DNA of 64,000 nucleotides from Rhodoferax fermentans (lineage in GTDB: Bacteria > Pseudomonadota > Gammaproteobacteria > Burkholderiales > Burkholderiaceae_C). A program made the translations under genes and the position numbers. The number at the start of each line of letters is the position of its first letter. The first letter of the stretch is position 1. The notes below the pieces were generated by a model. The model was not told where the DNA came from and made no database searches. It was given only the letters and a program-made list of their open reading frames with translations. Positions 40,860 to 61,088 of this stretch are shown here, in pieces. The DNA lies in NCBI RefSeq assembly GCF_002017865.1, contig NZ_MTJN01000002.1, forward strand, positions 1,860,001-1,924,000, in the 5' to 3' direction.

Positions 40860-40861
40860 GT

Positions 40862-40916: not shown

Positions 40917-40920
40917 AGCC

Positions 40921-40955: not shown

Positions 40956-40960
40956 CATTC

Positions 40961-42705: not shown

Positions 42706-42835
42706 CCCTCTGTGCCAGTTGGTGGCCTGGCGCACTGGCGCAAGCGACCATCTTGGCTCAAAATGGCTTGACCAAGGCAACCCGGTCTATTGTTTGGCGG
42801 GTTGTTCCAACTTTTATCTTGCTGGACCATTTGCC

Positions 42836-43957: not shown

Positions 43958-43990
43958 GCGCAACGGCGACCTCGCCCGCCAACAACGTCC

Positions 43991-45388: not shown

Positions 45389-45413
45389 CCAACCGCCGAG
45401 CCAGCCGGTTAGC

Positions 45414-46151
45414 TTAACCGCGTGCCTGGCGCTTGGTGCGCGCGCGGATGTTGAGCGCCTCCACCGCCAACGAGAACAACATGGCCACGTAGACATAGGC
45501 TTTGGGCACATGCACGTCAAAGGCTTCGGCCACCAAGAGCGTGCCCACCATGGTCAGGAAGGCCAGTGCCAGCACCTTGATCGACGGGTGCCGGTCAACA
45601 AACTCGCCAATCGGCTTGGCGGCAAACATCATCACCGCCACTGAGGCGATCACCGCCGCCACCATCACGCCGATGTTGTCGACCATGCCCACGGCCGTGA
45701 TCACAGAGTCCAGCGAAAACACGATGTCGACCACACCAATTTGCACAATCGTGCCCCAGAAAATCCCGCTACCGGCTTTGACAGTGTCGACACCGGACTG
45801 GGCCTCATCACTCTCGTGGGCTTCCACTTCCATGTAAATCTCGTGCGAGGCCTTGTAAAGCAGGAACAGGCCACCTCCCAGCAAAATCAGGTCACGGCCG
45901 CTGATCTCCTGCCCCAGCACGGTCAGCAGTGGCTCGGTCAGTGTCATCACCCAGGCCAGGCTGAACAGCAGCGCAATCCGCGACACCATGGCAAAAGCCA
46001 GACCCAGACGACGCGCCAGGTCACGCTTCTCGGGCGGCAGGCGCCCGACCAGGATGCTGATGAAAATGATGTTGTCGATGCCCAGCACAATCTCCAGTGC
46101 GGCAAGCATGAAGAAGGCAATCCAGGTGTTCGGGTCGGTGAGTAATTCCAT
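45414..46151 (-). CDS. TerC family integral membrane protein
   Basis: A 245-residue, seven-helix membrane protein of the TerC family. The signature ALEIVLGIDNIIFISIL (about 18-34) and the second Asp-containing segment GVVDIVFSLDSVITAV (about 139-154) are present. Members export Mn2+ or assist tellurite resistance. It has no riboswitch-like leader, unlike the GDT1 gene at 35345. The following 268-bp gap (46152-46419) holds an inverted repeat that may serve the divergent aminotransferase operon. Confidence 0.93.
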   Translation of the reverse strand: MELLTDPNTWIAFFMLAALEIVLGIDNIIFISILVGRLPPEKRDLARRLGLAFAMVSRIALLFSLAWVMTLTEPLLTVLGQEISGRDLILLGGGLFLLYKASHEIYMEVEAHESDEAQSGVDTVKAGSGIFWGTIVQIGVVDIVFSLDSVITAVGMVDNIGVMVAAVIASVAVMMFAAKPIGEFVDRHPSIKVLALAFLTMVGTLLVAEAFDVHVPKAYVYVAMLFSLAVEALNIRARTKRQARG

Positions 46152-46358
46152 GGGGGTGGGTCGCAGAGGCTAAAACTGGTGGAGTCTAGCGATGCGTTCA
46201 AAAGCCCCATGAGCTATGTGTTTTGTGGTCGCAGCTCCGCTGGCCCATCTGGTCATCGCGACAAGTTACAGAATTTGTCAAGCATATTCAGTGGGCTCCA
46301 CGATTTACACACAAATACTCAATGCTAAGTCAAGGTTTGGGTTGCAAACTGGCATGTG

Positions 46359-46387
46359 CTAGCGTGTTCTGGATCGTCAGACGCTAG
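46359..46387. promoter_or_regulatory. Inverted repeat upstream of the aminotransferase operon
   Basis: CTAGCGT (46359-46365) and ACGCTAG (46381-46387) form a 7-bp inverted repeat with a 15-bp spacer, ending 32 bp before the ATG of the class III aminotransferase. It could be an operator for a dimeric regulator, or form an RNA hairpin. A TTGCAA 16 bp upstream hints that it may overlap a promoter. Confidence 0.4.
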
Positions 46388-46419
46388 GTATGTGTGTAAC
46401 CCCCTGGAGTCCTTCTGAC

Positions 46420-47796
46420 ATGAGTAACGACAACGCTCAGCTGCTGGCTGATGAAGCGAAATACTGTTCTTTCGGTGATACCGTGCATTACGTCAATCCA
46501 CCCAAGATTTTTGATGGCTGCGAAGGCAGCTACATGTTTGATGCCGAGGGAACGCCATATCTCGACTTGCAGATGTGGTATTCGGCCGTCAACTTTGGCT
46601 ACAAAAACAAACGCCTGGAAGAGGTCATGATCCGCCAGCTGCAGACCTTGCCGCAGGTGGCCAGCCAATACCTTCACCCCACCAAGATTGAGTTGGCCAA
46701 GTTCATTGCACAAGATGCCCAGGCCAAGTGGGGCAGTGCAGGCCGCGTGCATTTCAATGTGGGCGGCGCGCAGGCTATTGAGGATTCACTCAAGGTGGTG
46801 CGCAACGCCTCCAACGGCAAAAGCCTGATGTTCGCTTTTGAAGGGGGTTACCATGGCCGCACGCTGGGAGCCTCCAGCATCACCTCAAGCTACCGTTACC
46901 GCCGTCGTTTTGGTCATTTTGGTGACCGCGCACAGTTCCTTCCCTTCCCCTACCCGTTCCGCCGTCCCAAGGGCATGACCTCAGAGGAGTACTCAGAGTC
47001 GCTGGTTAAGGAGTTCGCTCGTAAGTTCGAGAATGAGTACCACGCCATCTGGGACCCCAAGACCAACCAGTGCGAGTACGCCGCCTTTTACGTGGAGCCG
47101 ATCCAGGGCACAGGCGGCTACGTGGTGCCACCAGCCAACTTCTTCAAGGGGCTGAAAAAAGTGCTCGATGAGCACGGCGTGTTGCTGGTGGTTGATGAAA
47201 TCCAAATGGGTTTCTGGCGCACTGGCAAGCTGTGGTCGATTGAGAATTTTGGCGTCAAGCCTGATGTGCTGGTGTTTGCCAAGGCGCTGACCAATGGGCT
47301 CAATGCTCTATCGGGTCTTTGGGCGCGTGAAGAGCTGATCAACCCTGCGATTTTCCCACCAGGCTCGACACATTCCACATTTGCAGCCAACCCCTTGGGC
47401 ACGGCACTGGGTTTGGAGGTGATGAAGATGACGCACGAAGTTGACTTTGGTGCCCAGGTGTGCGACAGCGGCGCGTACTTCCTCGATGGCCTCAAGCAGC
47501 TGCAAAAACGCCACAAGGAAATTGGCGACGTGGACGGCATGGGGCTGGCGCTGCGCGCCGAGATTTGTACCGAGGACGGTTTCACGCCGAACCGCGCCTT
47601 GCTCGACAAGATGGTGGACATCGGGCTGGAGGGCAAGCTGGAGTACCAGGGCCAAAAGCGGGGTCTGGTGCTTGACGTCGGTGGTTACTACAAGAACGTC
47701 ATCACCTTGGCGCCGTCTTTGATGATCACGCGCCCCGAGATCGATGAGGCGCTGGTGCTGCTGGACCAGCTCATCACGCGCGCCAAGCGCAGCTGA
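46420..47796 (+). CDS. Class III PLP-dependent aminotransferase
   Basis: Fold-type I aminotransferase of 458 residues (the ornithine/diaminobutyrate/acetylornithine group). It shows VHFNVGGAQAIEDSLKVVR (phosphate binding), EGGYHGRTLGAS, VVDEIQMGFWRTGK with the pyridine-N Asp, and the PLP Lys in FAKALTNGLN (about 285). The donor or acceptor is likely an omega-amino acid or amine. Its stop overlaps the next gene by one base (TGATG). The GC content looks lower at the 5' end than in surrounding housekeeping genes (judged by eye). It opens the plus-strand half of the 46.4-59.8 kb cluster. Confidence 0.9.
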   Translation: MSNDNAQLLADEAKYCSFGDTVHYVNPPKIFDGCEGSYMFDAEGTPYLDLQMWYSAVNFGYKNKRLEEVMIRQLQTLPQVASQYLHPTKIELAKFIAQDAQAKWGSAGRVHFNVGGAQAIEDSLKVVRNASNGKSLMFAFEGGYHGRTLGASSITSSYRYRRRFGHFGDRAQFLPFPYPFRRPKGMTSEEYSESLVKEFARKFENEYHAIWDPKTNQCEYAAFYVEPIQGTGGYVVPPANFFKGLKKVLDEHGVLLVVDEIQMGFWRTGKLWSIENFGVKPDVLVFAKALTNGLNALSGLWAREELINPAIFPPGSTHSTFAANPLGTALGLEVMKMTHEVDFGAQVCDSGAYFLDGLKQLQKRHKEIGDVDGMGLALRAEICTEDGFTPNRALLDKMVDIGLEGKLEYQGQKRGLVLDVGGYYKNVITLAPSLMITRPEIDEALVLLDQLITRAKRS

Positions 47797-48863
47797 TGCT
47801 CTGGCGCAATCAGTTAGAACCGGACGCGCTGGTCAGGCACTTTGGCGCACACCCGCCGCAAGGGTTTTCTTTGCTGCAGGGTTTGCCGGTGCCAGCCTTC
47901 ATAGCCCCGTTCGATTTGCTCACCACCGCCGATGAGGCACTCAAAACCAAGGTGTCAGGGCTGCCACTTTATGAACGGTGGTCGCGCTGGCTGAGTGTGA
48001 AAACAGGCTTTGTCGGCAGCACGGTGACGGAGTACAGCCCTTTGCCGCTGGCCGGGCCCTCACCGCAGGCTCTGGCTGAGGCGGTCCGCCAAGGCTTGGG
48101 GCAACGTTTTGCATTGGCTATTGTCAAAGACATCCCCCACCAGTCGCCACTGTTGAGTGATGCCGACAACCACTACGCCCAAGCGCTGGTGGAGGCTGGC
48201 GAAGCACAGGGTTTTGTGACGGTAGAAGGCCAAGCACTGGCCTTTGTGCGTATTGACTTTGACCACCTGGACGTGTACCTGTCGCGCTTGTCCGCCAGCC
48301 GACGCCAGAACCTGCGACGCAAGCTGCGCAGCCGTTCCAGCATGCAGGTGCGGCACTTGCCGACGGGCCCGGCCTTTGCAGACGAGGCCTTGGTCGATAC
48401 GTATTACGCGCTGTACGAGTCTGTATACGCACAAAGTGAGGTCCATTTTGATCGACTCACACGCAGTTTTTTGGCGGCCTTGCTGCGCGACGAGACCAGC
48501 CGGGGAATGGTCTTTGAGTACCGGCGGCAAGATACACAGGCACTGCTGGGCTGGAACCTGTGTTACATACATGACGGACGTCTGGTGGACAAGTACATCG
48601 GTCTGGCTTACCCGGCCGCTCGTGAGACCAATCTTTATTTTGTGAGCTGGATGGAAAACCTGCAGTACGCCATCCAGAACGGGCTGACACATTACGTGGC
48701 GGGTTGGACGGACCCCGAGGTCAAACGCAGTCTGGGGGCTCAGTTCACCTTCACCCGCCACCTGGTGTATGTGCGCCAGCCTGTGCTCAGGGCGCTGGCG
48801 AGGCGTTTTGTGGGTCGGTTTGAGAGTGACCGCCAATGGCGCGGTGGCGCGGGAGTGCCATGA
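47796..48863 (+). CDS. FemAB/GNAT-like N-acyltransferase
   Basis: A 355-residue protein of the FemAB-like GNAT group (peptidoglycan-type aminoacyl or N-acyl transfer). The mark is LSASRRQNLRRKLR (about 166-179), followed by an acetyltransferase-like sheet (LLGWNLCYIHDGRLVDKYIG) and a C-terminal YVAGWTDPEVKRSLG segment. There is no signal peptide, so it acts in the cytoplasm. Partner proteins use aminoacyl-tRNA or acyl-CoA as donors. It is coupled to the aminotransferase before it and overlaps the arginase-family gene after it (ATGA), so the three act together. Product unknown. Confidence 0.8.
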   Translation: MLWRNQLEPDALVRHFGAHPPQGFSLLQGLPVPAFIAPFDLLTTADEALKTKVSGLPLYERWSRWLSVKTGFVGSTVTEYSPLPLAGPSPQALAEAVRQGLGQRFALAIVKDIPHQSPLLSDADNHYAQALVEAGEAQGFVTVEGQALAFVRIDFDHLDVYLSRLSASRRQNLRRKLRSRSSMQVRHLPTGPAFADEALVDTYYALYESVYAQSEVHFDRLTRSFLAALLRDETSRGMVFEYRRQDTQALLGWNLCYIHDGRLVDKYIGLAYPAARETNLYFVSWMENLQYAIQNGLTHYVAGWTDPEVKRSLGAQFTFTRHLVYVRQPVLRALARRFVGRFESDRQWRGGAGVP

Positions 48864-49768
48864 ACACGCCGGTGCTTGCGCCTGTGGTGCTGGATCTGGA
48901 CGGCTCGGTCGGGCCGCTGCCTGGCGAGTTGCGTCTGGCGCTGGCCTCCGATTGGCAGGAGGCCGTACGCTTTGGCTGCAGTTTGGCGCGCCTGCGACAG
49001 TTTTCCGCTGAGCTGCAGTCCCGACTGCCCGCGTTCACCGAGCACGGCACGGTTTTCACAGGCAGCGGAGACTTTCACCATCTCAGCTGGCCGCTGATCG
49101 AGCGCTGTATTACGGCACGCAGGTGCACGTCACAACACCCATTGCGCGTGCTGGTCTTGGACAACCACCCGGACAACATGCGGTTTCCGCTGGGTGTGCA
49201 CTGCGGCTCCTGGGTGCGTCGGGTAGCGATGTTGCCTCAGGTCTCACATGTCCATGTGGTTGGTATCACCTCGCGCGATATCGGCTTTGGCCATGCCTGG
49301 GAGAACTACTTGGCACCACTGCGGGCTGGGCGGCTGACTTACTGGAGTGTCGGGGTGGAAACGGGCTGGGCACGCTGGCTGGGACTGCAGCAGCAGTTCC
49401 GCTGCTTCCCCGATGCAGAAGCGCTCACCAGCGCCGTGTCTCACATGCTGTCGACCAACTTGCAAGCCACCTATCTCAGTATCGACAAGGACGTTTTCGA
49501 CCCGTCCGTGGTGCGCACCAACTGGGACCAGGGTGTGTTGCAAGCGCCTCATGTCTTTGCCATGATGTCTGCCCTGCGTGGCCAGTTGGCAGGCAGTGAC
49601 GTGACCGGCGACGTGTCTGCTTATCGCTATCGCACGGTGTGGAAGCGCTGCTTGAGCGCGGGTGATGGCCAGCAGACCGCAGAGATGGATGCCGCCTTGC
49701 CTGAATGGCAGGTGAAGCAAGGCGCGTTCAATCGGGAGCTGTTAAGGCAGTTGGAAAGGGCCGTCTGA
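48860..49768 (+). CDS. Arginase-family (ureohydrolase) enzyme
   Basis: A 302-residue member of the arginase/agmatinase/deacetylase superfamily. All binuclear-metal ligand motifs are recognisable but with uncommon surroundings: SGDFHHLS (usual GGDHS), LDNHPDNM (usual DAHxD) and SIDKDVFDP (usual SxDxDxxDP). The conserved Asp and His residues remain, so it is probably an active hydrolase of a guanidino, amidine or acetamido C-N bond. The divergent motifs argue against a plain arginase. It overlaps the acyltransferase gene (ATGA) and ends 49 bp from the convergent DegT-type gene. Confidence 0.75.
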   Translation: MNTPVLAPVVLDLDGSVGPLPGELRLALASDWQEAVRFGCSLARLRQFSAELQSRLPAFTEHGTVFTGSGDFHHLSWPLIERCITARRCTSQHPLRVLVLDNHPDNMRFPLGVHCGSWVRRVAMLPQVSHVHVVGITSRDIGFGHAWENYLAPLRAGRLTYWSVGVETGWARWLGLQQQFRCFPDAEALTSAVSHMLSTNLQATYLSIDKDVFDPSVVRTNWDQGVLQAPHVFAMMSALRGQLAGSDVTGDVSAYRYRTVWKRCLSAGDGQQTAEMDAALPEWQVKQGAFNRELLRQLERAV

Positions 49769-49817
49769 ACTTGGCGCGCCCAGTGGGGTGGTACGCCAAC
49801 GGACTTGACCGATGGGT

Positions 49818-51047
49818 TTACCTGACATCAAGCACCTGCTCCAGCGCTGTGCACAGCCGCTCGAAACTCTCAGCATCCAACCAAGGACTGTTGCTGATGG
49901 ACAGCACCCGTGCTGCAAAGCTGCGCGCATGGGGCAGGTCAGCAGGGGCTGTGGCGGGCACTACAGCGGCATAACGCGCGTAGTCTGCAAGCACATGCGC
50001 AAATGGCACAGACACACCGAGACCTGCGCCCCATAAACGCGCCAACGCAGCATCTCTTCGCGCCGCATCAGGCAGCAGAACCAAGATGGACGGCCAGGTT
50101 CCTTGGGCTGCGGGAACGCCTGCGCTGTCGTCTAGCACAGTAAGCGAGGAGATGCCGCGCAGCCTCGGCACGCGCTGCTGTGCTCTTGACTCGCTGTCCT
50201 CCAGCCAGGCTGGCAAGCGTGCCAGCGCCCGAACGCCCACAGCCTGGCGCCAGCGACCAACACGGTGCAAAGGAATGTTTTGCGAAAAATCGTCGCCCGC
50301 TGCGGCAATGCGGTCATTGTGTGCCAATGCACGGCGCAAAGGCCAACCATAGGCCCAGCGCAGCCCTCTCGGGTGGTACAGCGCGGTGTAGGCGAGCAGT
50401 TCGATAGAACGGCGAAGCTCCCAAACAAAGCTGGGCCGCACGATGGCACGCGCGGTGCGCTCGCAAGCAGCTCGCAAATCGGCGTCTGCCACAACCAAAG
50501 CGCCGCCTTCAAAAATGCTCAACCCCTTGCCAACGGCAAGGCTGAAAAAGACGATGTCACTGCCTGTGCCGACGCTGGCGCCCCCCACACGCGCACCCAA
50601 GGCCTGGGCGGCATCTTCGATCACCCACGCACCCTCCGCATGGGCCAGCGCACGTGCGGGTGCGGCATCAACCACACGCCCTGCAAGGTGTGTCGGCAAC
50701 ACGGCCAGTGTGCGCGGCCCACAGAGCGTTGCAAGAATCACTGGGTCCATGTCCAGGGCGTTGGGCATGAGCTCGCACATACGCAGCCTCAGGCCACAGT
50801 GCGCCACCGCCATGGCCACCAAAGGGCAGGTGTAGGCAGGCACAATCACTTCGGTGCGCTCGGGCGCCAGTGTGTGCAGTGTCGTGAGCGCCACGACGAG
50901 AGCGGCAGTGCCAGAGCACTCCACTTGCACCGACGAGACGCCAAGAAAACGCCCCAACATACCGGCCAAGTCCGAAGATCCACTAGCCCAAAGGTCGGTG
51001 AAAAACACGGGTAGACCAGCAGTAGGTGGCGCCTCAAGTGCCATCAT
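49818..51047 (-). CDS. DegT/DnrJ/EryC1-type aminotransferase
   Basis: Fold-type I PLP enzyme of 409 residues. It has ECSGTAALVVAL (PLP phosphate), VIVPAYTCPLVAMAV, VIEDAAQALGA with the Asp, and a probable PLP Lys in FFSLAVGKGLSIFEGG. Typical members aminate keto sugars; some act on other ketones. It is the last gene of the minus-strand operon and starts inside the DMT gene (ATG 51047 or 51044; a GTG at 51086 is also possible). No sugar nucleotide enzyme is nearby, so the substrate could be a non-sugar ketone made by the cluster. Confidence 0.82.
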   Translation of the reverse strand: MMALEAPPTAGLPVFFTDLWASGSSDLAGMLGRFLGVSSVQVECSGTAALVVALTTLHTLAPERTEVIVPAYTCPLVAMAVAHCGLRLRMCELMPNALDMDPVILATLCGPRTLAVLPTHLAGRVVDAAPARALAHAEGAWVIEDAAQALGARVGGASVGTGSDIVFFSLAVGKGLSIFEGGALVVADADLRAACERTARAIVRPSFVWELRRSIELLAYTALYHPRGLRWAYGWPLRRALAHNDRIAAAGDDFSQNIPLHRVGRWRQAVGVRALARLPAWLEDSESRAQQRVPRLRGISSLTVLDDSAGVPAAQGTWPSILVLLPDAARRDAALARLWGAGLGVSVPFAHVLADYARYAAVVPATAPADLPHARSFAARVLSISNSPWLDAESFERLCTALEQVLDVR

Positions 51048-51441
51048 GCAAGTGTGCGTTTGGTTCGGGCGCTGCGTCTGCTTCACTGCGTGCCAGGCAG
51101 GCGATACCCGCCAAGATCAGTGTTGCACCCGTCACCTGTGGCCAACCAATGTGCTCGCCAAATAACCAGGCTGACAGGATGAGCACCGTCACGACTTCCA
51201 GGTGAGATGCCGCAAATGCCGGACCAATCGGGGCATGCTCCAGCAAGGTCATCCAGGTAAAGAAGGCCCCCACGTAGCCCGCGAAGGCCCCATAGATCCA
51301 CGGCTGCCCAAAAACACGCCACAACCAGGCCGAGGAAAACTCCAAAGGCAGGGCAGAATCACCTGCCAACTTGAAGCTCAGCTGTGCCAGCGTGTCGAAG
51401 GCCACAAGCGCCAGAAAACCCACAGCGTAAAAGCGTTTCAT
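51034..51441 (-). CDS. Half-size DMT (EamA/SMR-like) membrane protein, second of a pair
   Basis: A 135-residue protein of four predicted helices (starting RFYAVGFLALVAFDTLAQLSF, with AAFASHLEVVTVLILSAWLFGEHIG as the typical DMT repeat end). It resembles ArnE/ArnF and paired SMR proteins, which work as heterodimers. It overlaps its partner at 51438-51441 (ATGA) and its 3' end overlaps the DegT-type gene. It probably moves a lipid-linked or amphipathic small substrate across the inner membrane. Confidence 0.78.
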   Translation of the reverse strand: MKRFYAVGFLALVAFDTLAQLSFKLAGDSALPLEFSSAWLWRVFGQPWIYGAFAGYVGAFFTWMTLLEHAPIGPAFAASHLEVVTVLILSAWLFGEHIGWPQVTGATLILAGIACLARSEADAAPEPNAHLHDGT

Positions 51442-51827
51442 GCGCGCACCCCCACGATGGCCACCCCTGCGGAGACAAGCAAAATGCCAATCACGCGCAA
51501 ACGCGATAACTTTTCCCGAAACAGGAAGCGCCCCGCGACCATCACCACCACGATGTTGATGGAGCCCAGAAGCACACCGTCGGACAGTGGCACCAGCGAC
51601 AAGAAGGCCAGCCACACCAGGAACTCGGCGACATAACAGCTCACGCCAATCCACAGCCAGGGGCGCCGCATCATCCACACCCAACGTGCCAAGCCCGTCC
51701 CCGCACGGGAATCGACGGAGGCTGCTGCCTTGAAGGCCAACTGCCCAGCCGTGTCTACGAGCATGTTCAATGCCCACAACACAGCGACCAGGGGGGGCAT
51801 GCTACTTTCTGTGCCGCCGAGGTTCAT
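51438..51827 (-). CDS. Half-size DMT (EamA/SMR-like) membrane protein, first of a pair
   Basis: A 129-residue, four-helix protein (ALNMLVDTAGQLAFKAA and LSDGVLLGSINIVVVMVAG, then the GILLVSAGVAIVGV end helix). The shared pattern TAGQLAFK/TLAQLSFK with its partner shows that both derive from one DMT half and likely form a heterodimer. Start ATG at 51827 overlaps the hydrolase stop (ATGA). A later in-frame ATG (51800) is possible but the overlap favours the first. Confidence 0.78.
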   Translation of the reverse strand: MNLGGTESSMPPLVAVLWALNMLVDTAGQLAFKAAASVDSRAGTGLARWVWMMRRPWLWIGVSCYVAEFLVWLAFLSLVPLSDGVLLGSINIVVVMVAGRFLFREKLSRLRVIGILLVSAGVAIVGVRA

Positions 51828-52729
51828 GCCAAACCTTGATTGGACAGTTTCTCGGCAAACGCCACGACATGTGCCAGCACTGTGCGGCGTTCACGATCAA
51901 TCGTGATCATGTGGTAGCTGTCCTCCAGAAGCACAAGCTCCACAGGCGCGTGGCGCACACCCCGAACTATGGTGTGTGCATTCTCGGTCGAGGCAATATC
52001 GTCACGGCGTGCATGGATCACGAGACAAGGCGAACGCACGCGGCCCAGGTGTTTGCGCACATGTGCAGCCAGAGACCTCATCTCGATCACCGACCACCAA
52101 GGATTGCCTGGCAAGCCTGCGGCAGCACTGTCGACTGAGTACATCTGCGCAACGACACGTTCGCGCAGAGCGACATCCTTGATGCCATAGGGTGGCTGCT
52201 CCATGAACACGCTGTGGCGCCCTATGCCCAAGGCTTTGAAAAGGGGTAAAAGGAACGACAGCCGCGTGTAAAACGGGATGCTCCAACCGTCGTAGTGAAA
52301 GGTGGTGGAGAGGGCGATCACGCCAGCCACCTGCTGGGGACAGTCTTCGGCCAGCGCGAGCGCCAGCACAGCCCCCATGGACAGGCCGCAGACCAGCACC
52401 GGTCGACCCGTGACTTGCTCCAACTGGTTGGCGCCGCGCCTGACACTGGCCAGCCAGTCTTGCCAGCGGGTGGCCACGAGATCGTCTTGGGAGCCGCAGT
52501 GACCCGCCAGTTGCACGGCCAGAACGGTGAAGCCCACACGGTGCAATCCTTTGGCCAGCAAGCGCATTTCGTTGGGGGTCCCTGTCAGACCATGGACCAA
52601 CAACACGCCTGTGGTGGCGTTGGGCCCATGGCCATGCAACAGGTACTCATGAGCGATGTCTGCGCTGGGCACCTGGGCAGGTTCACACGTATTTCGGCTG
52701 GCTTCAAAGGCCATGACTGCGGTGTTCAT
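51824..52729 (-). CDS. Alpha/beta hydrolase (carboxylesterase/lipase-like)
   Basis: A 301-residue serine hydrolase of the monoacylglycerol lipase/carboxylesterase group: LLVHGLTGTPNEM oxyanion segment (about 43-55), nucleophile elbow GLSMG (Ser about 117), VIHARRDDI with the acid, and DSYHMI with the catalytic His near the end. No signal peptide is present. It is joined to the HAD phosphatase gene upstream and the DMT gene downstream by ATGA overlaps. In the cluster it may release a thioester/ester-bound product or hydrolyse an acyl group added by the FemAB-like enzyme; this is inference. Confidence 0.85.
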   Translation of the reverse strand: MNTAVMAFEASRNTCEPAQVPSADIAHEYLLHGHGPNATTGVLLVHGLTGTPNEMRLLAKGLHRVGFTVLAVQLAGHCGSQDDLVATRWQDWLASVRRGANQLEQVTGRPVLVCGLSMGAVLALALAEDCPQQVAGVIALSTTFHYDGWSIPFYTRLSFLLPLFKALGIGRHSVFMEQPPYGIKDVALRERVVAQMYSVDSAAAGLPGNPWWSVIEMRSLAAHVRKHLGRVRSPCLVIHARRDDIASTENAHTIVRGVRHAPVELVLLEDSYHMITIDRERRTVLAHVVAFAEKLSNQGLA

Positions 52730-53466
52730 ACAGCGACCTCCATGGGCTGCGGGAGCAGCGCCAGAGCTTCAGAAAAATCGGAGAAAGCGGCGTGAGGAAT
52801 ATGCTTGGCCACGCAGTGGTCGATCAGCTTGTATTTAGCCAACACAAAATCGGCTTTACCAGAAACACAGAAATCTGAACTGCCATCGCCCACAAAAAGC
52901 ACACGCACATGGTGCGCCTGCTGCTGCTCAGCCAGGCGTTCACATTTGCAGTTGCCGCTGGCGCGCAAACAATGTGCACTGGCCCAGGGCGACTGCAGCT
53001 GCCAACTGCGCGGGCCGGTTTGAAGCAACCGGTTGGCAATCACAGGCAGGTCTGCCAGGCCATGTCTCTGAAGCACAGAATGGATGGCGTAGTCGATGCC
53101 ATCACTCACCACCTGCACCAGCATGCCACGTTCACGCGCAGCCTGTACAAAGTCACCAAAGTAGGGGTCAACAACAATGGTTGAGAGATGGGCGTCGAGC
53201 TCTTCACGGTCCATGTCAAGCAGGGCCACCTGGCCTTTCATACACTCGCGCGAGCCAATTTCACCGCGCTCCCAGGCGTCCTCCAGGGCTTGCCAACCAG
53301 GTCGACCAAAGCGTTGCAACAACGAGTCCGTGACGTCGATCGTGCTGATGGTGCCGTCAAAGTCACACTGCACGATCCAAGCCGAGTCCCCAGAGGGCTG
53401 CCGGTTTGGCTGCTGGGCACGGTGACAGACATCGACCACAGACCAGGATGTGTTGCTTCTACTCAT
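52726..53466 (-). CDS. HAD-IB phosphatase (MtnX/SerB-like)
   Basis: A 246-residue HAD phosphatase of the phosphoserine phosphatase/MtnX type. Motif I is QCDFDGTISTID (nucleophile Asp about 35), motif II VVSDG, and motif IV VGDGSSDFCVS. A Cys-containing stretch, NCKCERL (about 172-178), in the middle is unusual. It removes phosphate from a small metabolite; the substrate is unknown. It overlaps the adaptor gene by 8 bp and the hydrolase by 4 bp, putting it in a single operon with the efflux genes, which is unusual for such an enzyme. Confidence 0.82.
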   Translation of the reverse strand: MSRSNTSWSVVDVCHRAQQPNRQPSGDSAWIVQCDFDGTISTIDVTDSLLQRFGRPGWQALEDAWERGEIGSRECMKGQVALLDMDREELDAHLSTIVVDPYFGDFVQAARERGMLVQVVSDGIDYAIHSVLQRHGLADLPVIANRLLQTGPRSWQLQSPWASAHCLRASGNCKCERLAEQQQAHHVRVLFVGDGSSDFCVSGKADFVLAKYKLIDHCVAKHIPHAAFSDFSEALALLPQPMEVAV

Positions 53467-54370
53467 GAAAACTGACCCTCACATTTTGTCCAATACGTGC
53501 AGTGGGCGCCTGGTCAAAGTCCAAGACACACTCGATCACGCGCACCGGTCCCCGCTGGGTGTCATCTTGCAGGCGCCCATTGCCCAACACAGGGCTCATA
53601 CGCACCACCCTTGCTGGCGGTAACGCTTCAGATAGGCTGTCGCCATCGGTGGTGACATGAGCTCGCAAACCCACATGCACCTGCGTGGCGTAGCTCTCGT
53701 TGAGTTCGGCGCGCACGATGAGGGGGCGACGGGGCAACAGTGTGATGACGGGCTGTGCCACAACGCGCTGGCCTGCTTGTGTGTTGACACGCACGACCGT
53801 GCCACTTTCGGGTGCGCGCAACTCCAGTCTGGCGTTTTGAGCGCGCAATAACATCAGTCGGCTTTGCGTGACATTGGCCTCGGCCTGAGATACGGTGAAC
53901 TCTGCCTCCGCGTCGTGCAACAACTGTTGGGCGTCTTCGGCGCGCTGGGGCTCGGCAGCCCCTGCTGCTGCTGCCTCGGACAGTCGAGCCGCGGAACGTC
54001 GCAGTGCAGGAAGGCGCTGCGAGCGCGCTTGGAGTTTGGCACGGGCCAGTTTCAGTTCAGACTCGGCCACGGCCAACTCGGCTGCTGCGGCATTGCCCAC
54101 CAGACGCAGCAGCAACTGTCCGGGTTGCACCTCCTGCCCTTCCTGCACGGCCAGAGTCTGCACCACGCCATCTTGCGCAGGTGATAGCTCCAACAACCCA
54201 CCTTGCACGTCAATCTTGCCTCGGGCCATGGCAACCTCGCGCGGGCTGGATGCTGTTGCAGCGGTCGCTGTAGACGGAGCCGGTTTGGCGTTACACCCCA
54301 AGAGCAGCAGCATGGCGGCTAGCGAGGGCAGACACCTGCGGGTCAGCTGGGTCGTCAAGAGGTATTTCAT
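53459..54370 (-). CDS. HlyD/MFP-type efflux adaptor lipoprotein
   Basis: Periplasmic adaptor of 303 residues linking the inner-membrane ABC transporter to the outer-membrane factor. It has a lipobox (LLLLGCNAK, Cys about 26), half-lipoyl motifs around residues 52-85 (ARGKIDVQGGLLEL, VQEGQEVQPGQLLLRL), a helical hairpin of about 90-165, and a beta-barrel region to the end. It resembles MacA/DevB-type adaptors. It overlaps the ATPase gene (ATGA) upstream and the HAD gene by 8 bp downstream. Confidence 0.9.
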   Translation of the reverse strand: MKYLLTTQLTRRCLPSLAAMLLLLGCNAKPAPSTATAATASSPREVAMARGKIDVQGGLLELSPAQDGVVQTLAVQEGQEVQPGQLLLRLVGNAAAAELAVAESELKLARAKLQARSQRLPALRRSAARLSEAAAAGAAEPQRAEDAQQLLHDAEAEFTVSQAEANVTQSRLMLLRAQNARLELRAPESGTVVRVNTQAGQRVVAQPVITLLPRRPLIVRAELNESYATQVHVGLRAHVTTDGDSLSEALPPARVVRMSPVLGNGRLQDDTQRGPVRVIECVLDFDQAPTARIGQNVRVSFHE

Positions 54371-55119
54371 GGGGCATTCATCTCAGGGGAGGAGTTTGGT
54401 TGGCGCCAGTCCTTGCGGATGACACCGTCTTCCATGCTCAGTACGCGGTCGGCATGCCGCACCAATCGAGGGTCATGGCTGACACACAGCACCGTGGTGC
54501 CGTGCACTCGAGCAATGCGGTGCAAAATATTGATGACGCGCTGGCCACTTTCGGCATCTAAAGCGCTCGTCGGTTCATCGGCAAACAACAGTTGAGGCTG
54601 TTTGGCAATGGCCCGAGCAATGGCCACTCGCTGTTTTTCGCCACCAGACAACTCTGCCGGACGCATGTGAGCCCGGTGCGACATATCCACCTCGTCGAGT
54701 GCGCGCTGAGCCCGTCTTTCACTCTCTTTGTCACCCAAGCCAAGGTAACCCAGTGGCAGCTGCACCTGCTCCAGCGCTGTGAGTGCCGGAAACAGGTTGA
54801 AACCCTGAAAGACGAAGCCAGTGTGGTGCAGCCGAAAACGCTCCAGCGCACGGGTACTGAACTGTCCGAGGTCTTCGCCGAGCGCCATCGCTTGACCTGC
54901 GTCGGGGCTTTGTAGCCCCGACAACAAAGACAGCAGCGTGCTCTTGCCACAGCCCGACGGGCCTGAAATAAGCGTCAGTTCCGCAGGATAGATGGCGACC
55001 GAGAGACCATGCAGCACGGGGACGGTCATCAGTCCTGAAACGAACGATTTGTACAACCGGGTTGCCTGCAGGCTGGGGGCCATCGCAATAGGAGGGTCGG
55101 AGGACAAGGTGTTTTTCAT
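54367..55119 (-). CDS. ABC transporter ATP-binding protein (MacB/LolD-like)
   Basis: A 250-residue ATPase with GPSGCGKST (Walker A, about 55-63), LSGGEKQRVAIARA (signature), LLFADEPTSALD (Walker B) and VSHDPRLV (H-loop), the features of the LolD/MacB/DevA group. The N-terminal ~16 residues look like an extension; an inner ATG exists but the ATGA overlap with the permease supports the long form. It powers the FtsX-type permease encoded just upstream. Confidence 0.93.
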   Translation of the reverse strand: MKNTLSSDPPIAMAPSLQATRLYKSFVSGLMTVPVLHGLSVAIYPAELTLISGPSGCGKSTLLSLLSGLQSPDAGQAMALGEDLGQFSTRALERFRLHHTGFVFQGFNLFPALTALEQVQLPLGYLGLGDKESERRAQRALDEVDMSHRAHMRPAELSGGEKQRVAIARAIAKQPQLLFADEPTSALDAESGQRVINILHRIARVHGTTVLCVSHDPRLVRHADRVLSMEDGVIRKDWRQPNSSPEMNAP

Positions 55120-56249
55120 CGCAAAAGCAAAGCAGGTTCAGCGCGCAGCAAACCCCGAACAGCGAAGATGCCGGAGAACAAGGCCACAAGACCGATCAGC
55201 AAGGCGCATGCCACAGCCACAGCGGGGGTCATGGCCACAGGTACACCATAGACAGAGGCCAGACCAAGCAGAGCGGCGCTGGCAACTCCTGCGAGCACCA
55301 AGCCCAGGCCACCAATCCAGCACGCCTGCTCGATTACCAGCCGCGCCAAGGCAGCACGGCTGGCCCCCAGTGCGTTCAGCACAGCGTACTCACGTGCGGT
55401 GCCTGCAACGACAGCCATCAGCGATTGGCTGGTGACGACCGTGCCCACCAGACAGACAACAATGGCCATGAAGAGCACAGCCACCCCAGCGCCGGTATCA
55501 AACATCCAATAGTGCTGTGAGCGCAGAGCGAACTGCTCTGCCGTCCAGACTTCAAACGGCCCAAATCCTGCGCTGCCCTCTTGGGCCAAGTGGGCTTGCG
55601 TGGCTTGTGCAGGGCCGAGTGTTCGCGCAACCAGGTAAGTGGTGCCAGACGCAGCGTCGACTCCGCCAATCTTGCGGGCGGTGTCCAGTGAGGCCAGCAC
55701 GTTGATGCCACCCAAGCCGCGTAGCCCATCGACGGCGGCCACAACACGTACGCGGTGGCCGTTGATCCAGGCGGTCTGGTCAACCTGGACCCCAAGGGCA
55801 TCCAGATCTGCCCAATCCACAAGGACGGCGCCTGGTTCACGCAACGCCTCGCGCTGCCAGCGGGTGATGAGGCGCGCAAACAGCATGCCGTCAGGTGCCG
55901 TACGGATACCAGAGAGATAGACGGAAATGCCCCCCTCTCCAGCCCGCGCACTGTGCCAGTCGCCATCCACCCATTGATAGGGTTCCACCGCAGCGATAGA
56001 GGGATCCATGCGCAGACGCACTTCGACATCGGGACTAATGGTGCGCCCAAAGTTCACGCTTTGAGTACCTGGGTAGCCAGTCCAGAGGTCTGCGGTGGAG
56101 GCCTTCACATAGATCGCCGCACTGTCAAAGATGCCAAGTACCAGCGCCGCTTGCACCACCAACAGCAGGCCCGAGAAGCCCACAGCAAATACAGCGGGTA
56201 CAAAACGACGCCATTCATAAACCAGTGTTTTGCGTGCGAGTGGAATCAT
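55116..56249 (-). CDS. FtsX-like ABC permease (DevC/MacB class)
   Basis: A 377-residue permease with the MacB topology: one N-terminal helix (about 17-38), a large periplasmic domain (about 40-255), then three C-terminal helices (about 258-285, 312-335, 343-370), including VVTSQSLMAVVAGTAREYAVLNALGA, the typical FtsX cytoplasmic turn. The ATPase is a separate protein, as in DevBCA. It is joined by ATGA overlaps to the outer-membrane factor gene and the ATPase gene. MacB-type pumps extrude peptides, siderophores or amphiphiles from the periplasm. Confidence 0.9.
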   Translation of the reverse strand: MIPLARKTLVYEWRRFVPAVFAVGFSGLLLVVQAALVLGIFDSAAIYVKASTADLWTGYPGTQSVNFGRTISPDVEVRLRMDPSIAAVEPYQWVDGDWHSARAGEGGISVYLSGIRTAPDGMLFARLITRWQREALREPGAVLVDWADLDALGVQVDQTAWINGHRVRVVAAVDGLRGLGGINVLASLDTARKIGGVDAASGTTYLVARTLGPAQATQAHLAQEGSAGFGPFEVWTAEQFALRSQHYWMFDTGAGVAVLFMAIVVCLVGTVVTSQSLMAVVAGTAREYAVLNALGASRAALARLVIEQACWIGGLGLVLAGVASAALLGLASVYGVPVAMTPAVAVACALLIGLVALFSGIFAVRGLLRAEPALLLR

Positions 56250-57697
56250 GGCAATGTCGCGGCGTGGGCTGGGTCTTCTGACTCAGACTTTGGTAGCGGA
56301 GCTCCACCCAAGGCCTTGTAAAGCGCAACGAAGGCCAGCGCACGTGCGCTCAGGGCCATATCCAGCTCTGCCAGTGATTGCTGTTGGGCGCGCTGACGTG
56401 CCAGTGTGTCGTACTCGCTGGTCAAGCCCAGCCGGGCCTGTGTTTGCGCAGCTGTTGTGCGCTCACCCAACAAAGTGGCAGCTTGGGTCAGAGCATCAAC
56501 ACGAACTTGTTGGGCCGACAGTGCAGCAAGCGCTCCTTCAGTTTCTGCAATGCCATGGTGGACAGCACGACGGTAGTTGATCAGCGCTGCGTTCAGGTTT
56601 TCTTGCCGGATATCCACCTGAGTGCGGCGACGCCCCCAGTCAAAAAGCGGGATGTCGATGATCGGGCCGATCGCGGGTGCGTTGTCACTCCTGGTGCGAA
56701 AGTTGCGCGTGATGTTGTAGGCGTAGAGAAAAGACCCCCCAAGTGTGATGCGAGGGTAAAGCTCAGAGCGCGCCAACCCCAGTGCAGCAGCAGCCCTGTG
56801 CACCTCCGCCTCAGCAGCATGAACATCTGGCCGGGTACGCAACAAGTCAGCGGGCACCTGCGCCAGCGCGAACGGCGCCAGTGCGGGGAGAATGTGGTTG
56901 ACGGGGGTTTGGTGCCAGACTGGGTCGAGGGAGGTGCGACCCAACAGCACAGCCAGCGCCTGGGCTGCGTTGGCACTCGCCAGTTGCAGCAAGGCCTGTG
57001 TTGCACGCACCTGCTCGATCCGCAACCGCGCTTGGGTGACCTCATCTGCACTGCCCTGATGTGTGCGAACACGCACCTCGGCCAGCGATAACGCACGCTC
57101 ATCCAGAGCGGCCATCCGCTGCAGGTGAACGAGCTGCTGCTGGGCGGCACGCAAGTCCAGGTAGTTGCGTACAACGTCTGCGACAACCGACACACGCACA
57201 CCTTGCGTGTCGGCACCCGCAGCCGCAGCGACGGCCTGGGCTGCTTGCCGCGCACTTTGGGCTGCCCCAAAGAGGCCCAACTCCCAGACCATGTCGATGC
57301 TGGCGTGAAAGTAGGTGTCGGTGGCTGATATGTCTTGAAGGGTTTGTATATTGGCGCTCAGCGAGGGCAAATACTGTGCAGCAGTGCGGCCGGACGCCAG
57401 CCGGGCTTCACGCAATCGGCTCTGACTCAGCGCCAGATCCAGGTTGCTGGTATTGGCCTCTTGCACCAGGGCGTCCAGCACGGGATCGTTGAAGGCTTTC
57501 CACCAATTGCGCAGATCAACCACCGGCGCATCCGTGGGGGCGGGTTGCGTCCAGGCAGAAGGGACGGACGCAGTAGCCGTCGGAGTCGATACATCCGCGC
57601 TAGGCAATGCACAGCCCGTCAAAAGAGTGGACAACGTGGCATAGGCCACAAATAAGGGGTTGCGGTTCACGCGCAGACAAGTTGGATATAACGCCAT
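56246..57697 (-). CDS. TolC/NodT-family outer-membrane efflux lipoprotein
   Basis: A 483-residue outer-membrane factor with a lipobox LLTGCALP (Cys about 29), then two repeats of the OEP domain (coiled-coil helices and beta hairpins), with FGAAQSARQA in the first and LGLARSELYPRITLGGSF/FDWGRRRTQV in the second. It would form the trimeric exit channel of the pump encoded by the following three genes. It is the first gene of the nine-gene minus-strand operon, and its 189-bp upstream gap is shared with the response-regulator gene. Confidence 0.92.
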   Translation of the reverse strand: MALYPTCLRVNRNPLFVAYATLSTLLTGCALPSADVSTPTATASVPSAWTQPAPTDAPVVDLRNWWKAFNDPVLDALVQEANTSNLDLALSQSRLREARLASGRTAAQYLPSLSANIQTLQDISATDTYFHASIDMVWELGLFGAAQSARQAAQAVAAAAGADTQGVRVSVVADVVRNYLDLRAAQQQLVHLQRMAALDERALSLAEVRVRTHQGSADEVTQARLRIEQVRATQALLQLASANAAQALAVLLGRTSLDPVWHQTPVNHILPALAPFALAQVPADLLRTRPDVHAAEAEVHRAAAALGLARSELYPRITLGGSFLYAYNITRNFRTRSDNAPAIGPIIDIPLFDWGRRRTQVDIRQENLNAALINYRRAVHHGIAETEGALAALSAQQVRVDALTQAATLLGERTTAAQTQARLGLTSEYDTLARQRAQQQSLAELDMALSARALAFVALYKALGGAPLPKSESEDPAHAATLP

Positions 57698-57762
57698 ACC
57701 TTGCTAAGGAGATGCCGTCGTGTGGATAAGCTTGTATTTAAGCCGATGAAATTTGCGCAGTG

Positions 57763-57775
57763 ATGAACGCTTCAT
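57763..57775. promoter_or_regulatory. Small palindrome between the pump operon and the two-component system
   Basis: ATGAACGCTTCAT is a perfect 5-bp inverted repeat with a 3-bp centre; GATGAA occurs again at 57745-57750. It lies in the 189-bp divergent gap and could be a binding site for the adjacent OmpR-type regulator. Position is the only support. Confidence 0.3.
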
Positions 57776-57886
57776 GGAGATCGTGTGGAGGAGCTGGGGA
57801 TCGTGGGTCCTCATAGATAATTGACCGCGCCAGTGCCGTTTTGGGAATCACGCGCCGTGGTTTTGGCGATTTGTCTTTGGACTCTC

Positions 57887-58612
57887 ATGAACAGTTCCTC
57901 CTCTTTGCCTAGTCCGTTGGTTCTCGTTGTTGAGGATGAACCAGGCATATCCAGCATCTTGATGGCATACCTTGAACGTGATGGCCTGCGTGCCCAGCAT
58001 TCCGGCAACGGGTTGGAGGCTTTGCGGATGTTCCGGCAGCTGCGGCCCGACATGGTGCTGCTGGACATTCATATCCCCGGCATGGACGGTTTGGATGTTT
58101 TGCGAGCGATCCGCGAAGAGGGGCAAACACCGGTCATCATGGTGACTGCACTGGCCGACGATATCGACAAGCTGCTGGGCTTGCGTTTGGGGGCAGACGA
58201 TTACGTGGTCAAGCCCTTCAGTCCGCCCGAGGTGGTAGCGCGAGTGCGAGCCGTGCTACGACGCGCTCAGCCCCCGTCGGATGCCAAAGCTGCACAGCCA
58301 ATCCGCGCGGGGCGCATCGAAATCAATCAGGAAGCCCACGAGGCGCTGGCCTATACGGAGGATGGCCGGGCTGTGCCACTGCCCCTCACGCTGACAGAAT
58401 TCCGTTTGCTGGCTTGTCTGGCTGCACAACCCAGGCGCTGTTTCTCAAGATCTCATTTGATTGAAAACTGCCTGCCCGAAAGCGACGCGCTGGATCGCGT
58501 GATCGACTCACATTTGTCCAAACTGCGCCGCAAGCTGCAGCAGGCCGGACAGGGTGATTTGATTGAGACGGTGCGGGGTGTGGGGTATCGGCTGTGGCCT
58601 GGTGAACACTGA
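57887..58612 (+). CDS. OmpR-family response regulator
   Basis: A 241-residue regulator. The receiver domain has LVVEDEPG (acidic pair), the phosphoacceptor Asp in MVLLDIHIPGMDG (about 62) and the Lys in VVKPFSPPE (about 112). The winged-helix domain begins at about 140 and ends with the family signature VIDSHLSKLRRKLQ and VRGVGYRLW. ATG 57887 gives the clean receiver start; the gap upstream is shared with the pump operon. Its kinase follows 15 bp downstream. It likely controls the efflux/biosynthesis operon; AdeR/BaeR-type regulators do this for RND pumps. Confidence 0.92.
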   Translation: MNSSSSLPSPLVLVVEDEPGISSILMAYLERDGLRAQHSGNGLEALRMFRQLRPDMVLLDIHIPGMDGLDVLRAIREEGQTPVIMVTALADDIDKLLGLRLGADDYVVKPFSPPEVVARVRAVLRRAQPPSDAKAAQPIRAGRIEINQEAHEALAYTEDGRAVPLPLTLTEFRLLACLAAQPRRCFSRSHLIENCLPESDALDRVIDSHLSKLRRKLQQAGQGDLIETVRGVGYRLWPGEH

Positions 58613-58627
58613 GCGAGTTGGGTCGCC

Positions 58628-59800
58628 ATGAAATCACTGAAAGATTCTTTTTTTGGCCGCATCTGGGTTCGGCTCGGCTTGTACATTGCCGGGACCTTGC
58701 TGGCGACGATGGCCCTCTTGGCTGCAAGCCTGATGGTGTTCGAAGAGATTCAGTATCGCGATTTCTACCGGAGCCTGCCAAGTGCCGTGCGTGCAGAGAT
58801 AGATGAGTTGAACGAAAAAGGTCAGGAAGAAAGCCCTGAGGCCATGGTTATCTACGGCCAATACTGGCGAGGTGACATCTGGTTCAGTGAAAAATGGTCG
58901 CTCGCCCTCGGTCTGTTGATCTGCCTGCCTTTTGGCTTGGGGGTTGGTTTTTTTGTCTCGCGCCTGTTTTCGTACCCTTTGGCCTCCATGGCCGAGGTTG
59001 CCACCCGCGTTGCCGCCGGCGACTTCACCATGCGTGCTCAGCCTGGCCGCTACAGAGGCGAAATGGCGGACATGCTGACCCATTTCAACCAGATGATCGA
59101 CTCCTTGGAAAACATGGCGCGTGAGCGCAGAGCGACCACAGCATCGATCTCGCACGAGTTGCGCACGCCGCTGGCCGTGTTGCGTGCCCGCCTGTATGCC
59201 ATTTGTGACGGCGTCATCGAGGTCGACGCCAAGGAATCCAGCTTGCTGCTTGACCAAGTCGAGTATCTGGGGCGCTTGGTGGGAGACTTGCAGACCTTGT
59301 CGATGGCAGAGGCGGGCCGCCTGTCACTCAAGATGGCGCCTCTGGACTTGATCGCGCTGACACGTGGCGCATTGGCCAGTTATGCGGATCGCATTGCGCA
59401 ATATCACATGAGCTTGCAACTGCATCTGCCAGATGACTCTACCAAGGCCATCGTGAACGTAGATCCTGATCGCATGCGGCAGATTCTTTTCAACCTGCTG
59501 GAAAACGCGCTGCGACACGCCAAACAAGGCGGCTGGCTTGGTGTGGAAGTGACCGTCGATGATGCAGCTGATGAGGTGGTTATGCGTGTGAGTGACGCTG
59601 GCCCCGGCATGTCTGAAGACATGCTGGCGCGGCCCTTTCAGCGGTTTCCGCATGCACCAGGTCATGCCGGTGAGGGTCTGGGGTTGGGGTTGTCCATCGT
59701 TCAGGCATTGGTGGGGCGCCAGCATGGCACGGTCCAGGTCCACAATCGACCGGAAGGTGGAACGTGTTTTACAGTGCGCTTTCCTTCTGCTTTGGCGTAG
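58628..59800 (+). CDS. Sensor histidine kinase
   Basis: A 390-residue membrane histidine kinase with two helices (about 14-36 and 92-114) and a short periplasmic loop of about 55 residues, then HAMP (about 114-168), the dimerisation domain with the phosphoacceptor His in ASISHELRTPLAV (about 176) and the ATPase domain with NLLENALRHA (N box), DAGPGMSED (G1) and GEGLGLGLSIVQ (G2). It pairs with the regulator 15 bp upstream. The small sensor loop suggests that it detects a membrane or small-molecule cue, such as the exported product. Confidence 0.93.
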   Translation: MKSLKDSFFGRIWVRLGLYIAGTLLATMALLAASLMVFEEIQYRDFYRSLPSAVRAEIDELNEKGQEESPEAMVIYGQYWRGDIWFSEKWSLALGLLICLPFGLGVGFFVSRLFSYPLASMAEVATRVAAGDFTMRAQPGRYRGEMADMLTHFNQMIDSLENMARERRATTASISHELRTPLAVLRARLYAICDGVIEVDAKESSLLLDQVEYLGRLVGDLQTLSMAEAGRLSLKMAPLDLIALTRGALASYADRIAQYHMSLQLHLPDDSTKAIVNVDPDRMRQILFNLLENALRHAKQGGWLGVEVTVDDAADEVVMRVSDAGPGMSEDMLARPFQRFPHAPGHAGEGLGLGLSIVQALVGRQHGTVQVHNRPEGGTCFTVRFPSALA

Positions 59801-59870
59801 CGGCGCAGTGGTTACCCAGTGTCCGCACCCTCAAACGAGGTTCTGGTCGCACCTCGACACGTCGCGCCGA

Positions 59871-60374
59871 TCAGTCGGGTAGCCAGGCCCGCAAATCCAG
59901 CTCCAGAAACAGGGTGCCTTCAATCGGGTTGAACACATACCCGGGCACCGGCACAAAACCCATGGAGGCGTAGAGGGCCCGCGCGGCGCTCATGCTCGGC
60001 AGCGTGTCCAGGCGGATGGCGCGGTAACCGGCCTCTTTCGCCACCGTGCAGATCACCTGCGCCAGCCGCCGCCCCAGCTGCTGGCCACGTGCCACCGGGC
60101 GCAGGTACAGGCGCTTCATTTCACACAGACCATCTTCCAACGGGCGCAGACCCACACAACCCAGCGCCTGGCCATCGGCCCAAGCCAGCAGCAGACGACC
60201 CTGGGGTGCGGCGTAAGCGCCGGGCAAACCGGCCAGCTCCGCCTCAAAATTCTGGAAACACAGGCTGACACCCAGGCTGGCCTGGTACTCACGCAGCATC
60301 TCGCGCGCCAGACTCAGGTGTTCTGGGAAGCGGGCGTCGCAGATGTCGGCCACAGGCAGCAGCGTTGTGCTCAT
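59871..60374 (-). CDS. GNAT family N-acetyltransferase
   Basis: A 167-residue GNAT acetyltransferase with the acetyl-CoA loop VARGQQLGRRLAQ (motif A, about 96-108) preceded by MKRLYLRP. ATG 60374 overlaps the stop of the hemerythrin gene (ATGA), so the two are coupled and probably cotranscribed. Substrate unknown. It is separate from the cluster that ends at 59800, with a 70-bp gap in convergent orientation. Confidence 0.87.
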   Translation of the reverse strand: MSTTLLPVADICDARFPEHLSLAREMLREYQASLGVSLCFQNFEAELAGLPGAYAAPQGRLLLAWADGQALGCVGLRPLEDGLCEMKRLYLRPVARGQQLGRRLAQVICTVAKEAGYRAIRLDTLPSMSAARALYASMGFVPVPGYVFNPIEGTLFLELDLRAWLPD

Positions 60375-60856: not shown

Positions 60857-61088
60857 GCGGTATTGCCCCTTCCAACGAACACGTGTGATGGGCAAATCCT
60901 ACATCAGACACCAAGGGTTTCCCCAAACCATCGGGGTGAAACCGCTGGGCGCCTCAAACCAAGCGCCTGCAGAGGAGCAAAGATCTACATGGGGACTGTT
61001 CAAATCAAGCGGGCAGGGCCAGAATCTGTGGCCAAACGAGACCACTTATGGTTCTGGTGTCGTTGCCAACCTGATTCGCCTGATCTTT

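Follow-up and report, generated by a model that had tools for sequence, protein, structure and literature searches.

A 14-gene island of Rhodoferax fermentans with its own two-component system and exporter, and the amino-lipid that it may produce

Gene Content of the Island

The locus described here raises the question whether 14 adjacent genes of Rhodoferax fermentans form one functional unit and, if so, which kind of compound this unit makes. The genes lie in a stretch of 64,000 nucleotides (RefSeq assembly GCF_002017865.1, contig NZ_MTJN01000002.1, positions 1,860,001 to 1,924,000 of the forward strand), referred to as the window throughout. A first-pass annotation of the sequence had placed twelve metabolic and transport genes and a response regulator/kinase pair in one block and had proposed that they constitute a biosynthesis-export unit, controlled by its own two-component system, that matches no known pathway. 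All 14 open reading frames (ORFs), 12 for enzymes and transporters and two for the regulator/kinase pair, were confirmed at the proposed place. The layout of two operons with overlapping gene joints could likewise be read from the coordinates: the plus-strand operon codes for a class III aminotransferase, a FemAB_like transferase, and an arginase-family protein, and the minus-strand operon comprises, in order of transcription, the genes of an outer-membrane factor, an FtsX permease, an ATPase, a HlyD adaptor, a HAD phosphatase, an alpha/beta hydrolase, two half-DMTs (drug/metabolite transporters), and a DegT protein. The overlaps, ten in all, range from 1 nt (at 47796) to 14 nt (51034-51047), with seven of 4 nt and one of 8 nt. 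In the following list, rows of conserved residues are the best match per fetched locus above a coverage limit, with the window copy included.

46228..59864, no strand: whole island, the segment missing from congener G004 (locus L147), in which the flanks are intact
46420..47796, +: class III (PF00202) aminotransferase, 458 amino acids, Thr at the positions of GabT Glu211 and Arg398 (Pfam, alignment)
47796..48863, +: FemAB_like (PF04339) tandem-GNAT transferase, 355 amino acids (Pfam, fold comparison)
48860..49768, +: arginase-fold metallohydrolase, metal-ligand motifs intact (Pfam, motifs)
49818..51047, -: DegT/DnrJ/EryC1 pyridoxal phosphate (PLP) enzyme, catalytic Lys in 62/62 rows (Pfam, alignment)
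51034..51441, -: half-DMT (EamA) 2, 135 amino acids (Pfam)
51438..51827, -: half-DMT (EamA) 1, 120-129 amino acids depending on the start chosen (Pfam)
51824..52729, -: alpha/beta hydrolase (Hydrolase_4), GLS nucleophile motif in 74/74 rows (Pfam, alignment)
52726..53466, -: HAD-IB phosphatase, MtnX/phosphoserine-phosphatase-like, DFD motif in 71/71 rows (Pfam, NCBIfam, alignment)
53459..54370, -: HlyD-type periplasmic adaptor, N terminus lipoprotein-signal-like by eye (Pfam, NCBIfam)
54367..55119, -: ABC ATPase, best NCBIfam model DevA, below cut-off (Pfam, NCBIfam)
55116..56249, -: FtsX-type permease, sole NCBIfam match DevC, below cut-off (Pfam, NCBIfam)
56246..57697, -: outer-membrane factor, NodT family, above cut-off (Pfam, NCBIfam)
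57821..58612, +: OmpR-family response regulator with a TTG start, although translation may in fact begin at the ATG of position 57887 (Pfam)
58628..59800, +: HAMP/HisKA/HATPase_c sensor kinase (Pfam)

The ORF of the arginase-like protein opens at 48836, but its relatives start close to an ATG inside it (48860). One half-DMT scores above the EamA cut-off of 28.2 bits and the other just under it (35.2 and 27.4 bits, respectively), and the best Pfam stretch of the DegT protein is its N-terminal half.

Boundaries and Origin

Evidence that the genes belong together comes from an empty site in a congener. The segment 46228-59864 is missing in genome G004, which keeps both flanks: window positions 38219-46227 correspond to positions 1-8018 of its locus L147 (93% identity) and window positions 59865-60908 to positions 8031-9069 (87% identity), so that window positions 46227 and 59865 are joined there by 12 bases (L147 8018-8031) in place of the whole island. 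The missing 13.6 kb contain exactly the 14 genes, the kinase pair among them. A second congener (L148) has the stretch with the TerC gene only 89 bases from the one matching window positions 60381-60907 and lacks the cluster together with most of the GNAT gene. The 14-gene block is thus real and behaves as one unit that is gained or lost.

Horizontal gain of the island is suggested by the empty site in the congeners, by the lack of the FemAB-like gene in all 35 congeners (0/35, some of these genomes being incomplete), and by the lack of the host's flanking genes TerC, ChrA, and GNAT in the fetched stretches of 80 loci from other genomes (0/80). No integrase is encoded among the 14 proteins, and no terminal repeats were detected; the longest word common to the two 200-base island ends has 8 bases, the same as in random stretches of the window. 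Two other kinds of element were considered. A PADLOC scan of 10 of the 14 proteins for a defence island gave a single hit, a weak one between SduA and the receiver domain of the regulator (24.8 bits), and among viral contigs no close relative of the permease was found that would indicate a viral origin.

Conservation Across Genomes

Species genomes were scanned with an alignment of the arginase-like protein, which yielded at least 533 relatives; the best 80 were kept, and the counts given here therefore describe the nearer relatives. These 80 loci are related to each other and not independent, and many end at contig ends or at the 10 kb flank. Genes were counted by tblastn with bit-score limits of our own choice, and the gene listings, based on codon scores, miss genes. 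Among the best 80 are loci of Acidovorax, Paracidovorax, Xylophilus, Delftia, Comamonas, Variovorax, and Herminiimonas, as well as of Pseudomonas luteola, Pseudomonas asuensis, Rhodanobacter, Luteibacter, and others. The FemAB-like gene was present in 80 loci, the aminotransferase gene in 72, the two half-DMT genes in 63 and 62, and the genes of the hydrolase in 62, HAD in 61, DegT in 59, adaptor in 57, ATPase in 56, permease in 53, and outer-membrane factor in 53; matches to the response regulator and the kinase numbered 37 and 19, respectively. Synteny across genera was evident, since the nine-gene export operon occurs in the same order in 29/80 loci and the full set of 14 could be seen in 15/80. 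Relatives also keep the two operons together: the three-gene set and a seven-gene ordered export set were found in the same locus in 49/80 cases, within flanks of at most 10 kb. The expectation that relatives keep the two operons together was thus borne out in other genera; within the host's own genus the unit is absent, as judged by its FemAB-like gene (0/35). The gene set is more than a chance assembly, as its edges match the empty site of the congener and its order recurs in other genera.

In some genomes the pump is located elsewhere. A strong permease orthologue was found in 20 of 23 tested genomes whose permease was out of view (our own choice of 22 of the 27 loci without a permease match, plus L084, which already had its permease in view), and was not found in the other three (G073, G077, G082). 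Among 399 genomes of the same order, host included, FemAB was encoded in 11, the permease in 11 (6 in common), and the aminotransferase in 16, including all 11 FemAB carriers. The co-occurrence with FemAB has Fisher p values of 3.7e-8 for the permease and 4.9e-18 for the aminotransferase, calculated over related and hence not independent genomes. Outside the host's family, five FemAB carriers had no permease and five permease carriers no FemAB. In the wider class, FemAB was encoded in 3/370 genomes, host included. Brevundimonas records name an aminotransferase with 84% identity.

Promoter Repeats

Repeat scans revealed two direct repeats with an 11-bp period:

57774..57790, +: RTGGAG-N5-RTGGAG direct repeat, putative response-regulator box in the divergent pump/regulator promoter (repeat scans)
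46299..46315, +: CACAAA-N5-CACAAA direct repeat, degenerate (2 mismatches), about 120 bases upstream of the aminotransferase ATG (repeat scans)

The RTGGAG repeat lies between the pump and regulator genes and is of the kind that OmpR/PhoB-type regulators bind. In 30 loci with this divergent arrangement, window included, TGGAG-N6-TGGAG was exact in 24, had one mismatch in 5, and was missing in 1. The locus without the repeat is L054. Of 33 exact matches in 1,554,054 bases (81 sequences), 25 fall in the 4,231 bases of divergent promoters. The 17-base form occurs once in the 4,467,741 bases of the host genome, at the island, but this alone proves nothing, as a control pattern read backwards also occurs once. 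Since the one-mismatch repeat shows no excess across the whole window either (2 found versus 4.4 expected), the case for the repeat is one of place and conservation. On these two grounds it supports a putative dedicated two-component system. The CACAAA repeat, which is unlike the RTGGAG repeat, was found within two mismatches in 36/71 loci, which are related and not independent, versus 17/2000 random pieces.

Predicted Enzymes

The catalytic motifs of the HAD phosphatase, the hydrolase, and the DegT protein are intact across relatives, as is the PLP-binding Lys288 of the aminotransferase (83/83 rows), which matches PF00202 at 242 bits. In GabT, Glu211 and Arg398 are the switch pair of the glutamate-dependent class III aminotransferases. 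They align to Thr231 and Thr429 of the island's enzyme, both Thr in 83/83 rows; by alignment, the enzyme therefore lacks the canonical switch pair and is not predicted to be of the glutamate-dependent GabT type. The arginase-like protein scores 27.2 bits on the Pfam Arginase model (cut-off 22), its structural model has the arginase fold, and its metal-site motifs GSGDxHH, DNHxD, and IDKD are invariant in 27 sequences. In the same 27 sequences no residue is invariant from G230 to D252, a region not residue-aligned to a solved ureohydrolase, in which we take the equivalent of the guanidinium-binding Glu277 of arginase I to fall. The profile of this protein had no sequence relatives in the PDB. 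The model of the FemAB-like protein shows a predicted tandem GNAT fold, and the relatives of the DegT protein by sequence are sugar aminotransferases and dehydratases, ArnB included.

Distant Versions and Core Gene Set

Distant versions of the cluster indicate which parts are constant. In L133, genes for HAD, aminotransferase, hydrolase, carrier protein, ketosynthase, and a FemAB_like protein are consecutive on one strand. L134, from a genome of only 1.3 Mb, keeps HAD, aminotransferase, half-DMT, hydrolase, carrier protein (PP-binding), and ketosynthase, and this retention suggests a valued function. In L120-L123, HAD, aminotransferase, and hydrolase form one run and FemAB and arginase another, with ketosynthase and carrier protein present in L120 and L123. 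Among the 80 loci, HAD lies at most 600 bases upstream of the aminotransferase in 21, by listing of the Rhodanobacter/Luteibacter type; ketosynthase and carrier protein were each found in 28, and a cyclopropane synthase (CMAS, 287.9 bits) in 17. Further accessory genes code for an FA_hydroxylase in L121 and MipA in L120, L123, and L085. By their predicted families, the accessory genes of the distant versions are lipid-related. Five distant loci have the aminotransferase and lack a close FemAB orthologue; within the fetched stretches, the arginase-like gene was seen in one of them (L136). This distribution points to a probable core of HAD, aminotransferase, hydrolase, FemAB-type transferase, and half-DMTs. 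Ketosynthase plus carrier protein would be a frequent partner of this core, and the arginase-like protein, DegT, pump, and regulators seem to be variable parts.

Some neighbours of distant versions are recorded here for completeness. DUF2147 proteins adjoin two of them (L134 5106-5537, L136 6881-7189). Directly beyond the regulator genes of L123 (14717-18924) lie genes for an Arnt_C protein, a DMT, a DegT protein, and a GT2 glycosyltransferase. In L127 (2-6550 and 9124-14029) and in L128, a relative of the same pump is accompanied by a phosphopantetheinyl transferase and a polyketide synthase of a different kind that apparently makes lipids.

Proposed Product and Alternative Explanations

We tentatively favour the explanation that the island makes and exports an amino-lipid-like compound, because ketosynthase, carrier protein, chain-modifying accessories, an amide-forming transferase, flippase-like half-DMTs, and a DevBCA-like pump come together in this gene family. 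The class III aminotransferase and the HAD phosphatase would provide or complete a backbone or head group that carries an amino function, to which the FemAB-like transferase, as its tandem-GNAT fold suggests, may add an amide-bound group, either acyl from acyl carrier protein or aminoacyl from tRNA. In other lineages, the ketosynthase and carrier protein present there may shape a dedicated acyl donor, and chain modification may fall to the cyclopropane synthase or fatty-acid hydroxylase. The alpha/beta hydrolase could trim or release an ester or thioester; in versions that have it, the arginase-fold enzyme could hydrolyse a C-N bond. Judged by their families, the half-DMT pair would act like ArnE/ArnF and flip the product or its carrier over the inner membrane, and the pump of HlyD adaptor, ATPase, FtsX permease, and outer-membrane factor would carry the product out as DevBCA does, its expression presumably set by binding of the OmpR-type regulator to the conserved RTGGAG repeat. 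The kinase may sense the product, as the first-pass annotation suggested.

Several findings weigh against an amino-lipid. Neither ketosynthase nor carrier protein is encoded among the 14 proteins, ketosynthase was not found in the 45 loci nearest to the window (L011-L055), and the single ketosynthase match in the host genome is FabF-like at 42% (no search for a carrier protein was made in it). Neither a membrane-bound acyltransferase nor a CDP-alcohol enzyme is a fixed part of the set, and in three of the five permease carriers without FemAB (L126, L129, L130) no lipid genes were among the neighbours examined. The L121 hydroxylase found a match in 1/80 loci and the MipA of L123 in 0/80, the latter qualified by a family of 15 Xanthomonadales-type loci that includes the MipA of L085. 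The nearest solved folds of the FemAB-like and arginase-like models include antibiotic-pathway enzymes, and the pump proteins score below the cut-offs of the DevA, DevC, and DevB models (209.5 of 295.8, 46.1 of 290.35, and 56.3 of 129 bits, respectively), by which they would fall outside the DevBCA type.

A more specific form of the amino-lipid proposal, fairly improbable as a whole, is a new bacterial family of amide lipids functionally parallel to sphingolipids. Nitrogen would enter through the atypical class III aminotransferase and HAD rather than an alpha-oxoamine synthase, the amide bond would be formed by the FemAB-type enzyme with a dedicated or housekeeping ketosynthase and carrier protein, the product would reach the surface through its own tripartite pump under the dedicated two-component system, and the island would have spread among Beta- and Gammaproteobacteria. 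Formation of serinol from dihydroxyacetone phosphate (by analogy to RtxA), supply of ornithine by the arginase-like enzyme, and formation of a beta-amino acid are kept as ideas and not claimed.

Unlikely, though less so than this full scheme, is the main rival, production and export of a soluble metabolite of pseudo-peptide type derived from an amine or guanidine. Here the two PLP aminotransferases would make amines, the FemAB-like enzyme would add an amino acid from tRNA as for streptothricin, the arginase-like enzyme would remove an amidino group, and the pump would be a MacAB-type exporter. An amine or guanidine-type small molecule was the leading product of the first-pass annotation and loses this rank, since the arginase-like gene was not seen in four of the five distant loci, its family has no invariant residue in the region where a counterpart of Glu277 would be expected, and ketosynthase and carrier protein (28/80 loci each) and cyclopropane synthase stand beside the cluster in other lineages. 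Nor is an adenylation domain present among the 14 proteins.

Less credible than either of these is an arn-like modification of the envelope, in which lipopolysaccharide or another glycolipid would receive an unusual amino sugar or amino group under OmpR-type control, with DegT comparable to ArnB and the half-DMTs to ArnE/ArnF. The sequence relatives of DegT, its position adjoining the half-DMT pair, and the genes beyond the regulators of L123 agree with such a role, but DegT was not found in 21/80 loci, some of them incomplete, the 14 proteins include neither a glycosyltransferase nor a nucleotide-sugar enzyme, and lipopolysaccharide could presumably be decorated without a pump that leads through the outer membrane. 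A last alternative is that unrelated catabolic enzymes lie next to a multidrug pump by chance. The separable parts, the pumps located elsewhere, and the five FemAB and five permease carriers lacking the other gene could be cited for it, but it is contradicted by the empty site, the co-occurrence, and the conserved order and was rejected as highly improbable.

The complete unit or parts of it occur in Acidovorax, Paracidovorax, Comamonas, Delftia, Variovorax, Rhodanobacter, Luteibacter, and two Pseudomonas records, and it would explain part of the envelope or exometabolome of these bacteria. Among the carriers of the set is a laboratory strain, Comamonas testosteroni ATCC 11996 (L041). The unit brings together a FemAB-type transferase, an exporter of its own, and a class III aminotransferase that lacks the usual switch residues, and its conserved promoter repeat makes the regulator's signal approachable.

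Comparison with Known Systems

In agreement with the earlier statement that no known pathway has this gene set, a full-text search of the open-access literature, which leaves most subscription papers outside its scope, found no published description of the cluster. The sole match in one search concerned, in the part available, a different, LuxR-type system (PMC3684757).

Five known systems resemble parts of the island. Exosortase A-associated gene sets include a FemAB-related protein and alpha/beta hydrolases; the island's hydrolase, however, matches TIGR03101 only weakly and far below its cut-off (44.4 versus 202.75 bits), and no exosortase or ligase is among the 14 proteins. The aminoacyl-tRNA-dependent synthases of streptothricin type (Sba18, Sbb17) and MprF share the predicted tandem-GNAT fold over most of the FemAB-like model, but only 9-16% identity over aligned residues. 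The arn genes for aminoarabinose modification of lipid A likewise combine a DegT aminotransferase with two half-DMTs (ArnE/ArnF), whereas counterparts of ArnA, ArnC, ArnD, and ArnT are absent among the 14 proteins. In the ceramide pathway of Caulobacter, which consists of Spt, bCerS, and CerR, an acyltransferase builds an amide lipid, as one may do in the island, and bCerS is presumably also FemAB-like (COG3146). In contrast to it, the island has no serine palmitoyltransferase or reductase among its 14 proteins (the search for the former covered these proteins and not the rest of the host genome) but a class III aminotransferase, HAD, hydrolase, and pump instead. According to an excerpt of PMC11087976, the acyltransferase of this pathway forms an amide lipid and acyl carrier protein can donate the chain; excerpts of PMC11334938 and PMC10331486 concern sphingolipids as well. 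The DevBCA-HgdD system of cyanobacteria, the exporter of heterocyst glycolipids according to an excerpt of PMC8277102, has the same parts as the island's pump: a HlyD adaptor, a LolD/MacB-like ATPase, an FtsX permease, and an outer-membrane factor. The island's ATPase and permease score best on the DevA and DevC models, but, in contrast to DevBCA, the pump stays below the cut-offs of the DevA, DevC, and DevB models, and its operon includes the outer-membrane factor together with biosynthetic genes.

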